A stretch of DNA of 64,000 nt from Parasphaerochaeta coccoides DSM 17374 (GTDB lineage: Bacteria > Spirochaetota > Spirochaetia > Sphaerochaetales > Sphaerochaetaceae), in assembly GCF_000208385.1 (NCBI RefSeq), contig NC_015436.1, positions 496,001 through 560,000 on the forward strand. The letters run 5' to 3'. Positions 6,288-12,486 of the stretch are shown here, one piece after another; the stretch's first letter is position 1, and each line of letters starts with the position of its first letter. The position numbers and the translations under genes are program-made. The notes beneath the pieces were generated by a model. The model was given only the letters and a program-made list of their open reading frames with translations, was not told the DNA's origin and did no database searches.

Positions 6288-6800
6288 TTATCGCCACGCA
6301 AGACGCTTCGGCTGGAAGAATTGCCAGTGCCATCCTCCAAGGCTTTGTTCAAGCTCAAGGACTGCCAGACGGGCGTCTGTGATGGGAGAGAAGGAAAGGG
6401 GAGAAAGATAATCCTCGATTTCCTGCTGATGGTACAGGAAGCTTTCCTTGGCCATGGGTGCCAGCATTAGTCCCTGGGGATGGGCGGCAGATGCCCCGGA
6501 GGAAGTTGTCAGCGTATATGTCAGTCTCTCCAGTGCCGGGGACTGCACGGCAGGAAGAATGAGCGCACCCAAGTCGGAGAGTACAGCACGGGAAGATATC
6601 TCCACCCGGCTGCCATCCCAAGGAATATCCTCAGGAAGAGACAGGGGATCACGGCTGTGGGCGAGCGTCAAAGCACTGCTTGCGGCATAGAAAGCGACAT
6701 CGCCCGTCATCCTCCACAGGACGCGTCGAACCGACTGAAGCTCCCTGCGTATCTTTTCGGGCAAGATAAGTACATAATGGTAAGCGAGTAACCGATGCAT
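6288..6800 (-). CDS. Hypothetical protein
   Basis: 170 residues, beginning MHRLLAYHYVLILPEKIRRELQ. No signal peptide or clear membrane segment; composition is that of a soluble protein with several Trp and Pro in the C-terminal half (GGWHWQFFQPKR). The frame is free of interruption and lies in an otherwise empty interval between the hppA terminator and rpmB. The N-terminal pattern loosely recalls 2H-phosphoesterase-like proteins, but the paired H-x-T motifs are not there. Function not recognised. Confidence 0.55.
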   Translation of the reverse strand: MHRLLAYHYVLILPEKIRRELQSVRRVLWRMTGDVAFYAASSALTLAHSRDPLSLPEDIPWDGSRVEISSRAVLSDLGALILPAVQSPALERLTYTLTTSSGASAAHPQGLMLAPMAKESFLYHQQEIEDYLSPLSFSPITDARLAVLELEQSLGGWHWQFFQPKRLAWR

Positions 6801-7436: not shown

Positions 7437-9872
7437 ATGAAGGATATTCGAGTACATTCACTCCCCGGCACACTTGCGCTGGATGCCGATGCCCCTGAGA
7501 AATTGGCAGAAATAGCGGCTTTGGTACCGGCGATCCATGTGTTCATCATCGGACCTGTACGACGGGTGTCTTATGATCTTGCGTTCTCCATCCGACAGTC
7601 TCACGGGAATGCGGAAGCCGCCATGAAAGCCCTGGAGGACGGACAGGAACTATGGAACCATCTTGTCTATGACCGTCTTGGCAAGGGAAAGGCCTCTGGA
7701 AGCATTTCAGCACATATCGCTTCCAACATAGCGACAGCCAGGGAAATACTGCATGTTTTGGATGGTTCCCTTGCTTTTCCTGGAGGTTCTGATAGATATG
7801 TTGATGCCCTTGGCTCCCATTGGGCGGCAGAAATCTGCCGGGCGGCAATGAAACAGAAGGGCATGGATGTAGTTTTGGTGGATTACCCTCAGGCACTGCG
7901 CAAAGGAAACTCAATCCTTACATCTCCCATTGTCCTGATTTACGGAGATATCCGTGGAGAAGAAGACATCGACGTTTCAACTGATCCTGATGGAGAGACC
8001 CTTGCCGAACATGCCGCCAGTCGTCTTGGCCCCTTGTTGGGAGCAGGAGGCATAACGTTCTGGAACGGACACGCGCCTCTGCGTACCGCCGACATACGTG
8101 AAGTCCCCGGAGCACGTGTCATTGATGAACTTTCCTTTTCGGAGGCTGTGGAACTATCCTATTTCGGAGCTCCTGTGGTTCATCCACGGTCGCTGTTGCC
8201 CGCTTCCGGAACAGGATTACCGGTGCGCTTGTCATGGTGGAATGACATCCAAGGTCCTTGTACCGTAGTCCGTCCCATGGCGCATGCGGAAAGAATTCCG
8301 GAATCGACGGTCAATGGCAGGGTCAAGGGATTTTCCATCATTCACGATGTCGCTTTGATCAACATTGAAGGTACTGGGATGAGTGGAGTTCCCGGTATCT
8401 CAAGCCGTCTGTTTTCTACGATGCGTGATGGTAGCATATCGGTTTCCTTCATCAGCCAAGCGTCCAGTGAGTATTCCATCTGTTTTGCAGTCGCTGCTGT
8501 TCAGGCACAGGATGCCATGACTCTGGCACACGACGCTTTCCGCCATGAGCTCTCTCTCGGACTCATTCAACGCATTGACAGTGAGCCTGGCTGTGCAATC
8601 CTTGCGGTTGTCGGAGACAGAATGAGCGGGACTCCGGGCATTGCCGCGCGTGTCTTCTCCTCCCTGTCCAAGGTAGGCGTGAATGTTCGGGCAATTGCGC
8701 AGGGTTCTTCGGAAAGAAACATCAGCGCAGTGATAAAGGACTCGGACAGTACCCGCGCCCTTCAGGGGCTTCATGCAGGTATCTTTTTGTCTCGCAGGAC
8801 TTTGTCTGTAGGAATATTTGGACTGGGTGGCATTGGTTCCACATTATTGGAACAGCTCAGGGTACAAAGTGAAAGACTGCATGAGGAGTTTGGCGTTGAT
8901 ATCCGCATCAGGGCTATGGCAAACAGCACACGAATGCTTCTGGATGAGGAAGGTGTGGATCTTGATACATGGAAGGAACGTTTTAAAAAAGATTCCGTGC
9001 TTTTGGATACCCAAAAAGTCATTGAGCATGTGACAGTCCCATATTTTCCCCATGCGGTCATCTTTGATTGCAGCGCCAGTGGAGAACTCCCGCGCAATTA
9101 TGTCTCATGGTTGGAAAAAGGCGCTCATATCATCACGCCTAACAAAAAAGCCGGAGCAGGTCCTTATGGGTTGTATGACAAACTGATGAAGACTTGTCGT
9201 TCCACTGGTCGTCGTTTTCTGTATGAAGCTACTGTCGGTGCCGGTCTGCCGGTCATCAGCACCTTGCAGGACTTGGTACGCACCGGAGATCGCGTACATC
9301 GGATTGAAGGCATTGTAAGTGGAACTTTGGCATGGCTTTTCTCACAGTATGATGGAAGCAAGCCTTTTAGTTCATTGGTGCGTGAGGCCAGGGAAATGGG
9401 CTATACGGAACCTGATCCACGGGATGATCTATCCGGCATGGATGTGGCACGCAAGACAGTCATTCTTGCCCGTGAGTTAGGTTATACGGTTGAGACAGCC
9501 GATTTGCAAGTCACGTCCTTGGTGCCGGAGCAGCTTTGCAACATGGATGTCCCCCTGTTCATGGCGCGGCTGCAAGAGATGGACGTACCGATGGAGAAGT
9601 TGTTCAAAGAGGCTGAAGCGAGGGGAGAAAAACTTCGGTATGTCGGTCAGATTGATGGAAATGGTCGTTGTTCTGTCAGCCTGAACAGCTATCCCGCTGA
9701 ACATCCTTTTGCCCAGACTGTCGGTACAAACAATGTCATTTGCTTCACCACCGACAGGTATCATGAGTTTCCGCTGGTCATCACAGGGCCAGGAGCCGGA
9801 AAAGAAGTGACTGCTGGTGGAGTATTCGCGGACTTGCTGAGATTGTGTGCGTATCTTGGCGCACGGTTGTAA
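7437..9872 (+). CDS. ThrA-like fusion: degenerate aspartokinase domain plus homoserine dehydrogenase
   Basis: 811 residues in ThrA order: aspartokinase-like region (about 1-285), two ACT regulatory domains (about 295-450; GMSGVPGISSRLFS, QGSSERNISAVI) and homoserine dehydrogenase (about 455-811). The dehydrogenase has the NAD(P) motif GLGGIG near 462, TPNKKAGAG near 569 and the signature EMGYTEPDPRDDLSG, and should reduce aspartate semialdehyde to homoserine. The kinase part keeps its late elements (PGARVIDELSFSEAVELSYFGAPVVHPRSL) but lacks the N-terminal KFGGTS, the RGE and the LGRGGSD nucleotide motifs, so it is probably catalytically dead. Start ATG follows GGGAG. Upstream of thrC, gap 47 bases. 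Aspartokinase must come from elsewhere. Confidence 0.9.
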   Translation: MKDIRVHSLPGTLALDADAPEKLAEIAALVPAIHVFIIGPVRRVSYDLAFSIRQSHGNAEAAMKALEDGQELWNHLVYDRLGKGKASGSISAHIASNIATAREILHVLDGSLAFPGGSDRYVDALGSHWAAEICRAAMKQKGMDVVLVDYPQALRKGNSILTSPIVLIYGDIRGEEDIDVSTDPDGETLAEHAASRLGPLLGAGGITFWNGHAPLRTADIREVPGARVIDELSFSEAVELSYFGAPVVHPRSLLPASGTGLPVRLSWWNDIQGPCTVVRPMAHAERIPESTVNGRVKGFSIIHDVALINIEGTGMSGVPGISSRLFSTMRDGSISVSFISQASSEYSICFAVAAVQAQDAMTLAHDAFRHELSLGLIQRIDSEPGCAILAVVGDRMSGTPGIAARVFSSLSKVGVNVRAIAQGSSERNISAVIKDSDSTRALQGLHAGIFLSRRTLSVGIFGLGGIGSTLLEQLRVQSERLHEEFGVDIRIRAMANSTRMLLDEEGVDLDTWKERFKKDSVLLDTQKVIEHVTVPYFPHAVIFDCSASGELPRNYVSWLEKGAHIITPNKKAGAGPYGLYDKLMKTCRSTGRRFLYEATVGAGLPVISTLQDLVRTGDRVHRIEGIVSGTLAWLFSQYDGSKPFSSLVREAREMGYTEPDPRDDLSGMDVARKTVILARELGYTVETADLQVTSLVPEQLCNMDVPLFMARLQEMDVPMEKLFKEAEARGEKLRYVGQIDGNGRCSVSLNSYPAEHPFAQTVGTNNVICFTTDRYHEFPLVITGPGAGKEVTAGGVFADLLRLCAYLGARL

Positions 9873-9919: not shown

Positions 9920-11185
9920 ATGAAATTTTTTTCGACACGGAAGAAAGCGCCGCACGTGAACCTGGGAGAATCTCTGCTGACCGGATTGGCTCCTGATGGC
10001 GGTCTATATGTTCCTGAAACCATTCCTGCCAGGGATTTCCGGGAATATTTCCCATCATCATTTCCTGCTCTGGCGGCGGATGTCCTGTCGCCATTCTTTG
10101 AGAAAGATCCACTTGCTTCAAGTCTGGACGATATTTGTGCATCGGCTTTCAATTTTCCTGTCCCTCTCCATAGCTTGGGAGATGATCGAGAGGTCTTGGA
10201 ATTGTTTCATGGGCCTACTGCGGCCTTCAAGGATTTCGGGGCACGTTTCTTGGCACGTTCCATGGAGAAAGAGCTTGTCCGTTCCGGACGCACTCTGACC
10301 ATATTGGTGGCTACCAGCGGTGATACGGGAGGAGCGGTGGCTGCGGCGTTCCATGGATGCAGAGGAATTAACGTGAAGGTGCTTTTCCCCAAGGGACGGG
10401 TTTCCGCCCGACAGAAACGGCAGCTGACCTGTTGGGGGGACAATATTTCAGCATATGAAGTCGAAGGTTCATTCGATGACTGTCAGAAAATGGTCAAGGA
10501 TGCTTTCATGGACAAGGATGTTTCCCGTAGAGAGAGGCTGTCAAGTGCGAACAGCATCAATCTTGGACGGCTTCTGCCTCAAATGACGTATTACGTACAT
10601 AGTGCCTTGGAATTCAAGAAAAAACATGGTGCGAATCCTCTGGTCATTGTTCCTAGCGGTAATGTCGGGAATAGTTGCGCTGGTTACTGGGCAAAGACTT
10701 CAGGCGCTCCTATTGCGCGTATCGCCTTGGCTGTAAATGCGAATAGCACAATCGTTGACTTTCTTTCCAGCGGACGATATGAACCACGCCCCAGCGTGGC
10801 GACATTGGCGAACGCGATGGATGTGGGAGCCCCCTCAAACATGGAAAGGCTCCAGGAGCTGTTTCCGAGCTTTAAGGAATTTTCCGCAAACGTCACTGCC
10901 TGGAGTGTCTCGGACGAACACATTAGAGAAACAATCGGGAAAACGTGGGAAAATGACCGGTATGTCATGTGTCCGCATACGGCAACCGCTGAATATGTCA
11001 GACTGACACACTTCCCCAGAGAAAAGAGTATCATTGTCTCAACGGCTCATCCGGCGAAGTTTGAGACCATAGTGGAACCTCTGGTAGGGCATTCTGTCGC
11101 TGTTCCTGACTCATTGGCGGTTTTGCTTGAAAAGAAAGAGACGTATCAGTCGATTCCGGCTGACCATCATCTCCTTTTTGCATGA
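9920..11185 (+). CDS. thrC: Threonine synthase
   Basis: 421 residues. A PLP enzyme that converts O-phosphohomoserine to threonine. N-terminal GLAPDGGLYVPE is typical of the short bacterial class; PLP Lys104 is in AAFKDFGARF, and VATSGDTGGAV and the glycine-rich PSGNVGN phosphate-binding loops are present. Start follows GGAGG at 9906-9910. Second gene of a two-gene threonine operon with the thrA-like gene; there is no thrB homoserine kinase between them, though galK of the same GHMP superfamily is next door on the other strand. Confidence 0.95.
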   Translation: MKFFSTRKKAPHVNLGESLLTGLAPDGGLYVPETIPARDFREYFPSSFPALAADVLSPFFEKDPLASSLDDICASAFNFPVPLHSLGDDREVLELFHGPTAAFKDFGARFLARSMEKELVRSGRTLTILVATSGDTGGAVAAAFHGCRGINVKVLFPKGRVSARQKRQLTCWGDNISAYEVEGSFDDCQKMVKDAFMDKDVSRRERLSSANSINLGRLLPQMTYYVHSALEFKKKHGANPLVIVPSGNVGNSCAGYWAKTSGAPIARIALAVNANSTIVDFLSSGRYEPRPSVATLANAMDVGAPSNMERLQELFPSFKEFSANVTAWSVSDEHIRETIGKTWENDRYVMCPHTATAEYVRLTHFPREKSIIVSTAHPAKFETIVEPLVGHSVAVPDSLAVLLEKKETYQSIPADHHLLFA

Positions 11186-11211: not shown

Positions 11212-12486
11212 CTATAAGATGCGTGATGACTTCCTATGTCTGATGGCGAGTGCAGTCACGCTGTTTTTCCCAAACACCAGCTCCATCTCTTTTTTGTAAT
11301 GAGGGAATAAATCCACGGGCACATAGGCAAGTATCGTTCCGGCGAATCCTCCTCCATGATTTCTGCATGCACCGCATCCATTCAGTATCCTGCGGCTTAA
11401 CGCCAGTGCCAGTCCAAGACCCTGTTCAAGAGGGTTATGGGGGGAATAAAGGTTCTGAAGATACTCGAAGGCTGAGTGACAGGCTTCATTGGTCAAGGAA
11501 AGGTATGTTGTCATATCATTGTTCTGGAGCGCATTGAGCATTGCCGCGACACGATTGTTTTCATCAAAAAAATGGATGGCACGGAGAAGGGATCGGTCAT
11601 TCTTCACGCTTTTATGGAGAGCTGGAAGTGCGGCGTAAAATTCTTCCTGTGGGACTTCCCTAAGATATTTCTTGTTAAAAAAAGCGGATATCATTCCCAT
11701 TTCGGGTGGAATTGAAGCATAATCACTGGTCAAATCAGCATGATTCCCACCGGTATCTACGATTGTCAGGACATATCCTGCCTGGAAGAAATCAAAGGAA
11801 ACCGGTGTGACAAGAACATTTGCAGGATTAGCGAAATCCATGCCTATTATGCCGCCGTGGGCGCAGGCGGCCTGATCCATCAATCCGCTGGGCTTGTTGA
11901 AATAGACATTTTCTGCATATTTCCCGATTTGTGCCAGCTTGATGGGCGACCACGCGTCATTATTGGAATAATGGTTGAATATGGTTGCGCAGAGTATTTC
12001 AATGGCAGCCGAGCTGCTCAGCCCGGAACCTTTCAAGACAGTGGATGTCGTATATGCCTTCCATCCTCGTAGTGCGATGCCTTCATCTGAAAATGAACGT
12101 GCAATGCCGCGTACAAGTGCCGTACTTGACTCTTTTTCTTCTTCCTTTGGCGCAAGGTCGGAGAGGTTCACGCTAACGGGTCTAAAGCCTTCGCTAATCA
12201 GTTGAACCGTATTGTCGTCAGTAGGGATTACCGCAGCAATGGTATCAAGGTTGATTGAGGCTGCAATGACTTTCCCCATGTTGTGATCAGTATGGTTTCC
12301 CGCCAGTTCTGTTCTGCCTGGAGTACTGAAAAGCGCAGGGCGTTCGGTTTTCCCAAAGATTCTGATGAACCCGTCAAGGAGATTATGGAAACGCTCATCC
12401 ATCTTTGTTGCGTCATAATCACTCCCATAAAGCTGTGGGTAGACGGCATGCAGCGTGTCAATGTCAGGTGGAGTGAGGATTGCCAT
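11212..12486 (-). CDS. galK: Galactokinase (GHMP kinase family)
   Basis: 424 residues. The galactokinase signature is read as GRTELAGNHTDHNMG (about 57-71), followed by the ATP loop GSGLSSSAA and the C-terminal GCGACRNHGGGFAGT, which matches the third GHMP motif. It should phosphorylate galactose at C1 for the Leloir pathway; neither galT nor galE is in the window. The start follows AGAAGGAG. The 193 bases above it (12487-12679) are very AT-rich and should hold the promoter, with TATACT on the minus strand near 12515, but I cannot pick a -35. It converges on thrC. Confidence 0.88.
   Translation of the reverse strand: MAILTPPDIDTLHAVYPQLYGSDYDATKMDERFHNLLDGFIRIFGKTERPALFSTPGRTELAGNHTDHNMGKVIAASINLDTIAAVIPTDDNTVQLISEGFRPVSVNLSDLAPKEEEKESSTALVRGIARSFSDEGIALRGWKAYTTSTVLKGSGLSSSAAIEILCATIFNHYSNNDAWSPIKLAQIGKYAENVYFNKPSGLMDQAACAHGGIIGMDFANPANVLVTPVSFDFFQAGYVLTIVDTGGNHADLTSDYASIPPEMGMISAFFNKKYLREVPQEEFYAALPALHKSVKNDRSLLRAIHFFDENNRVAAMLNALQNNDMTTYLSLTNEACHSAFEYLQNLYSPHNPLEQGLGLALALSRRILNGCGACRNHGGGFAGTILAYVPVDLFPHYKKEMELVFGKNSVTALAIRHRKSSRIL

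Follow-up and report, generated by a model that had tools for sequence, protein, structure and literature searches.

The thrA gene and its neighbours

The window (the whole 64,000-nucleotide stretch of Parasphaerochaeta coccoides DSM 17374 analysed here) carries on its forward strand an open frame running from an ATG at 7437 to a stop at 9872, thrA, whose 811-residue product combines a putatively kinase-dead aspartokinase half, two ACT domains and a homoserine dehydrogenase. The pseudo-aspartokinase domain (residues 1-288; 7437-8300), delineated by Pfam, alignment, AlphaFold2, PDB matches and a profile, has an amino-acid-kinase fold without the catalytic residues; Pfam places the two ACT domains at residues 292-452 (8310-8792) and the homoserine dehydrogenase at residues 455-811 (8799-9869), all on the forward strand. 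Matches to Homoserine_dh (PF00742, 8.8e-52), NAD_binding_3 (PF03447, 3.5e-16) and ACT (two copies) agree with the original prediction for this DNA that both ACT domains and the dehydrogenase are intact, and the latter is the sole homoserine dehydrogenase of the genome. Within the ACT domains, none of the 61 aligned copies departs from Gln341 or Gln422; these two lie 81 residues apart, as do the threonine-binding Gln 443 and Gln 524 of Arabidopsis AK-HSDH.

Directly 3' of thrA lies thrC, encoding threonine synthase (9920-11185, forward strand), and this gene order recurs in 78 of the 81 loci compared. Divergent from thrA is a gene for a 170-residue protein without a Pfam or NCBIfam match (6288-6800, reverse strand), homologues of which accompany thrA at 47 of the 81 loci; convergent with thrAC is a galactokinase-like gene (11212-12486, reverse strand), with a counterpart close to thrC at 27 of the 81, whose product scores below every NCBIfam galactokinase cut-off and has the galactose-binding signature. 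The genome has no match to TIGR00191 (thrB) or TIGR02535 (the phosphoglycerate-mutase-like homoserine kinase). Across 61 genomes these models exceed their cut-offs in two and four, respectively, so that in most of these spirochaetes neither model recognises an enzyme making phosphohomoserine. The sole APH-family gene of the window genome (at 291 kb) matches none of the NCBIfam models; one of its two GHMP genes looks like a galactokinase, and the other is, on our own reading, presumably IspE. Among genomes examined from the window's own family, the only one with a canonical thrB over cut-off (G026) is that with the most degraded ThrA (L038, a frame of 749 residues), a pairing that may be due to chance; the genomes with shortened ThrA (L034, L035 and L037) are without canonical thrB.

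Catalytic residues and fold of the N-terminal half

Compared with E. coli ThrA, the window protein carries the changes K5 to S, E127 to S, R204 to E, D208 to E, T227 to N and D228 to G, which bears out the earlier reading that the KFGGTS, RGE and LGRGGSD motifs have been replaced. The codon aligned with Lys5 of KFGGTS encodes Ser8 (7458-7460), a position with Lys in none of 81 copies; Glu191 (8007-8009) is aligned with Asp208 of the GSD loop, a change common to the dead copies (as we call those that have lost these motifs); and Trp209-Asn210 (8061-8066) correspond to Trp226-Thr227 in the WTD motif, all three on the forward strand. In the window and 80 relatives together, E. coli K5, E127, R204, D208 and D228 are each kept in 0 of 81 copies, the D208 position is Glu in 81 and the T227 position Asn in 80, and W226 is retained throughout (81/81). 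The former motif sites thus hold fixed residues of their own: His7, Glu191 (81/81) and Asn210 (80/81). The N-lobe of the dead copies also has a new acidic-Trp helix motif, and part of this N-lobe signature (Trp63, Trp109) is gone from the window copy. In aspartokinase III, a 2003 study reportedly ascribed key catalytic roles to K8 and D202. For NAGK, PMC2851564 calls the Lys and Asp at these places (K8 and D162) key catalytic residues. With the catalytic residues gone both here and in 80 relatives, we infer that the kinase half of the window ThrA is catalytically dead.

A sequencing frameshift that hides the motifs, named in the original prediction as one way it could fail, was looked for and rejected together with an assembly error: KFGG, GRGGSD or GRNGSD, and WTD are absent from all six frames between 7301 and 8400 and the coding frame is open, so no frameshift conceals them; the loss is common to all 80 related genes from other spirochaete genomes, and domain and dehydrogenase share one frame in 80 of 80. 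The single RGE tripeptide of the protein, at about residue 172, does not fall where the alignment places E. coli E127; the window has Ser there.

The fold has nonetheless been kept. An AlphaFold2 model of residues 1-452, built with 60 relatives, has a mean pLDDT of 91.4 and a pTM of 0.90, and its best Foldseek matches are the threonine-sensitive aspartokinase structures 3c1m and 3c1n of M. jannaschii (TM up to 0.81); VIA-align superposes it on threonine-bound 3c1n with Z 33.7 and an rmsd of 3.1 over 427 residues. Residues 1-285 alone match UMP kinases with Z of about 16-17 (VIA-align), and the ACT region matches 6mx1, an E. coli-type ThrA regulatory domain, with Z 21.2 and an rmsd of 2.0 over 156 residues. 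The Pfam AA_kinase match is partial, covering ThrA residues 120-264 and positions 75-231 of the 234 in the profile. The earlier statement that the N-terminal part aligns with aspartokinase only in its later portion holds for comparison of the single sequence; it does not hold for a profile of the N-terminal domain alone (the A1 profile, n=23), which matches residues 16-305 of the M. jannaschii aspartokinase 3c1m (E 3e-27), and hence the whole N-terminal region is a diverged aspartokinase domain. Replacement of the kinase by an unrelated domain is rejected by the same fold and profile matches; model, PDB matches and profile all identify an amino-acid-kinase fold.

Spread and history of the loss

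When 84,980 species genomes were scanned with the A1 profile, 128 stretches came back, of which 124 were relatives and 80 were kept; all 80 are from spirochaetes, including the isolates Sphaerochaeta halotolerans (L077) and Bullifex porci (L133), and all have lost the motifs. Sixty of the 80 fetched loci (after a 90% identity filter, with L111 left out as its start is missing) form, with the window, the alignment of 61 copies (A2). Within the class, ThrA is found at E <= 1e-60 in 94 of 297 genomes; these were sorted by family code into 60 dead and 34 intact genomes, and the motifs were read in part of them, namely 17 dead copies outside the window's own family and 18 intact ones (G309 having been dropped by the filter), plus own-family copies. 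All 19 copies read from families f24, f42, f45 and f5 and from E. coli are intact and have Asp at D208, while Glu stands there in 24 of 24 untruncated dead copies from six families (f1, f3, f4, f17, f22 and f25), the four truncated relatives being counted apart; two of the 24 (G052, G057) are without the N-terminal end because the contig or the examined region stopped there.

The dead copies differ in how far decay has gone. Families f22 and f25 stand halfway: K5 is kept in 5 of the 8 copies with letters at that position, R204 in 4 of 9, and G206 and G231 in 9 of 9, but not one of 8 retains E127. Decay is full in f1, f3, f4 and f17; the N-lobe is missing in L034, L035 and L037, and in L038 the domain is nearly unrecognisable (the four frames span 653-749 residues). 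The window's own family (37 genomes) includes 22 near full-length forms, 4 shortened or degenerate ones, 10 genomes with low-similarity dehydrogenase or aspartokinase matches only, and 1 with nothing.

In a tree of 41 ACT and dehydrogenase sequences (without L034, L035, L037, L038, E. coli ThrA, G189 and 8 of the 12 f24 rows), the dead copies group in a single clade (95/95) next to the intact copies, so that one change of state suffices; the members of the own family likewise form a clade (96/100), and f3, f4 and f17 need two changes. A quick first tree of 55 rows that included the truncated copies agrees on the single change (SH-aLRT 94) and differs in the remainder; its topology, in which the own family is scattered and the truncated copies are basal to the dead group on long branches, was set aside. 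In both trees the dead copies lie on one side of a branch. The decay is old and clade-wide rather than peculiar to the window gene, as the search for the same decay in relatives that the original prediction had proposed bears out.

Supply of the pathway by another aspartokinase, likewise predicted, fits the gene content. In the window genome, a single contig of 2,227,296 bases, the one further aspartokinase is LysC (296,824-298,128), with KFGGSS, SRGE, SRGGSD and WTDV intact. LysC is intact in 13 of 13 dead-ThrA genomes read for it (the window's included), and LysC of the same type (E <= 1e-40) occurs in 57 of 60 dead-family genomes. Of the three exceptions, G162 (95% complete) has no LysC that we found, G013 has two fragments elsewhere, and the G075 genome is 85% complete. 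An apparent restriction of LysC to genomes with dead ThrA (57/60 versus 0/34 at E <= 1e-40) was withdrawn as an effect of subtype: with a general aspartokinase model, 29 of 34 intact-ThrA genomes have a further aspartokinase over cut-off, and a spare kinase by itself thus neither explains nor predicts the loss. One genome with an intact ThrA has its second aspartokinase match within an open frame of 843 residues (G300:C111:8672-9979).

Selection, role and known systems

Across 21 pairs of close relatives, which are non-independent, dN/dS is 0.043-0.132 for the dead domain, 0.010-0.135 for the ACT region and 0.010-0.096 for the dehydrogenase; the dead domain is mostly faster-evolving than its neighbours, yet far from neutral. 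Relative to its own dehydrogenase (log-identity), the domain evolves at 2.3-3.0 in the dead groups versus 1.2-1.6 in intact ThrAs. With 32 positions unchanged in 95% or more of the 60 other copies, a preserved kinase fold and purifying selection, the domain survives, as had been predicted, and that of the window ThrA, retained under selection with its catalytic residues lost, is a probable pseudokinase. The window copy is at the same time the most eroded of the 61, with 14 of 46 conserved domain positions changed (the median of the 61 is 4%) and 5 of 69 in its ACT region; having drifted beyond any of the 60 relatives, its domain is losing constraint as well.

We hypothesize, and think it probable, that the kinase half of ThrA died in an ancestor shared by several families of spirochaetes and has been kept as a folded, non-catalytic scaffold. 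Aspartyl phosphate would then be made by LysC alone; the dead half would keep the two ACT domains in their oligomeric arrangement; and threonine bound at the ACT pair would, via the scaffold, still inhibit homoserine dehydrogenase, the enzyme that commits flux to threonine and methionine. Judged from sequence, coupling of the threonine-sensing ACT pair to the dehydrogenase is the likely role of the domain. Telling against this account are the raised rate of the domain relative to its dehydrogenase, the erosion of the window copy, the lack of a LysC in G162, the spare aspartokinases of most intact-ThrA genomes, and the four relatives in which the domain is shortened or almost gone, so that some lineages can dispense with it.

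A less probable account, to which we would give a minor share of belief, is that of a slowly vanishing relic, lost stepwise, whose only job is not to harm the folding of the rest. The graded series from partial decay (f22, f25) through full decay (f1, f3, f4, f17) to loss of the N-lobe (L034, L035, L037) and severe loss (L038), the raised rate of the domain relative to the dehydrogenase and the outlying position of the window copy among the 61 would all suit it, but a dN/dS of 0.04-0.13, the 32 positions so widely kept and the near full-length form in 22 of 37 own-family genomes argue against it. More doubtful still is that the dead half is more than a scaffold, its former active site (with His7, Glu191 and Trp209-Asn210 fixed) having been rebuilt as a pocket for another ligand, or the half now pairing with LysC, so that the threonine signal would be relayed to the dehydrogenase and to the separate aspartokinase. 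The fixed residues and the acidic-Trp helix motif of the N-lobe could be read in this way; the former, however, may serve packing only, and the window copy has lost Trp63 and Trp109 of the latter signature.

That the protein is still an aspartokinase working with substitute residues is very improbable: the fold is kept and the NCBIfam equivalog for bifunctional AK/HSD I (NF006959) is passed with 751 bits versus a cut-off of 726, but this score stems from residues 190-806 only, not one of the 81 copies retains the Lys, the Glu, the Arg or either Asp of the catalytic motifs, and an intact LysC is present. The notion that the dead half is the missing homoserine kinase, invited by a genome in which thrC follows thrA and neither TIGR00191 nor TIGR02535 matches, can practically be discounted, as the catalytic Lys and Asp are lost, three dead-ThrA genomes (G039, G052, G060) also have TIGR02535, and G014, whose copy is without the N-lobe, has thrC and matches neither model.

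The same equivalog, a curated model of NCBI, is over its cut-off in four of four dead proteins scanned (window, L077, L133 and L023), which shows that the name "bifunctional aspartate kinase/homoserine dehydrogenase I" is an annotation error on dead proteins; metabolic models using such names would include an aspartokinase that the cell probably does not have in this protein. Our literature search, which reached few subscription journals, found no report of a kinase-dead ThrA, and a plasmid collection yielded three records with only an 85-base match, to E. coli thrA. A pseudokinase within a fused metabolic enzyme is already known; the ThrA case adds a kinase that is dead throughout a clade and whose intermediate forms survive. 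One bacterial class thereby offers a natural series of intact, partly dead, fully dead and truncated kinases, all fused to the same living enzyme, on which one can test whether homoserine dehydrogenase, to be controlled by threonine, requires the fold of the kinase domain but not its chemistry.

Among known systems, the window ThrA is like E. coli ThrA (b0002) in its domain order (kinase fold, ACT, ACT, dehydrogenase) and in belonging to a thr operon with thrC, but its kinase catalytic residues are all lost, there is no thrB between thrA and thrC, and the genome has a separate LysC available for the kinase step. The closest solved structure, the M. jannaschii threonine-sensitive aspartokinase (3c1m, 3c1n; window ThrA residues 4-451), is by contrast an active kinase with no fused dehydrogenase. 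The aspartokinase beta subunit of Corynebacterium glutamicum, an ACT-only product of an internal start, is likewise a kinase-less part of an aspartokinase kept for regulation; it lacks the kinase fold, which the window ThrA retains. The best parallel is N-acetylglutamate synthase, in which, according to PMC4490483, the kinase-fold domain nucleates oligomers and carries arginine regulation: there, as proposed here for the window ThrA, a kinase fold forms the core of the oligomer and regulates a second enzyme fused to it, although the fused enzyme is a different one and arginine binds the kinase-fold domain itself, whereas the expected threonine site of ThrA is the ACT pair.
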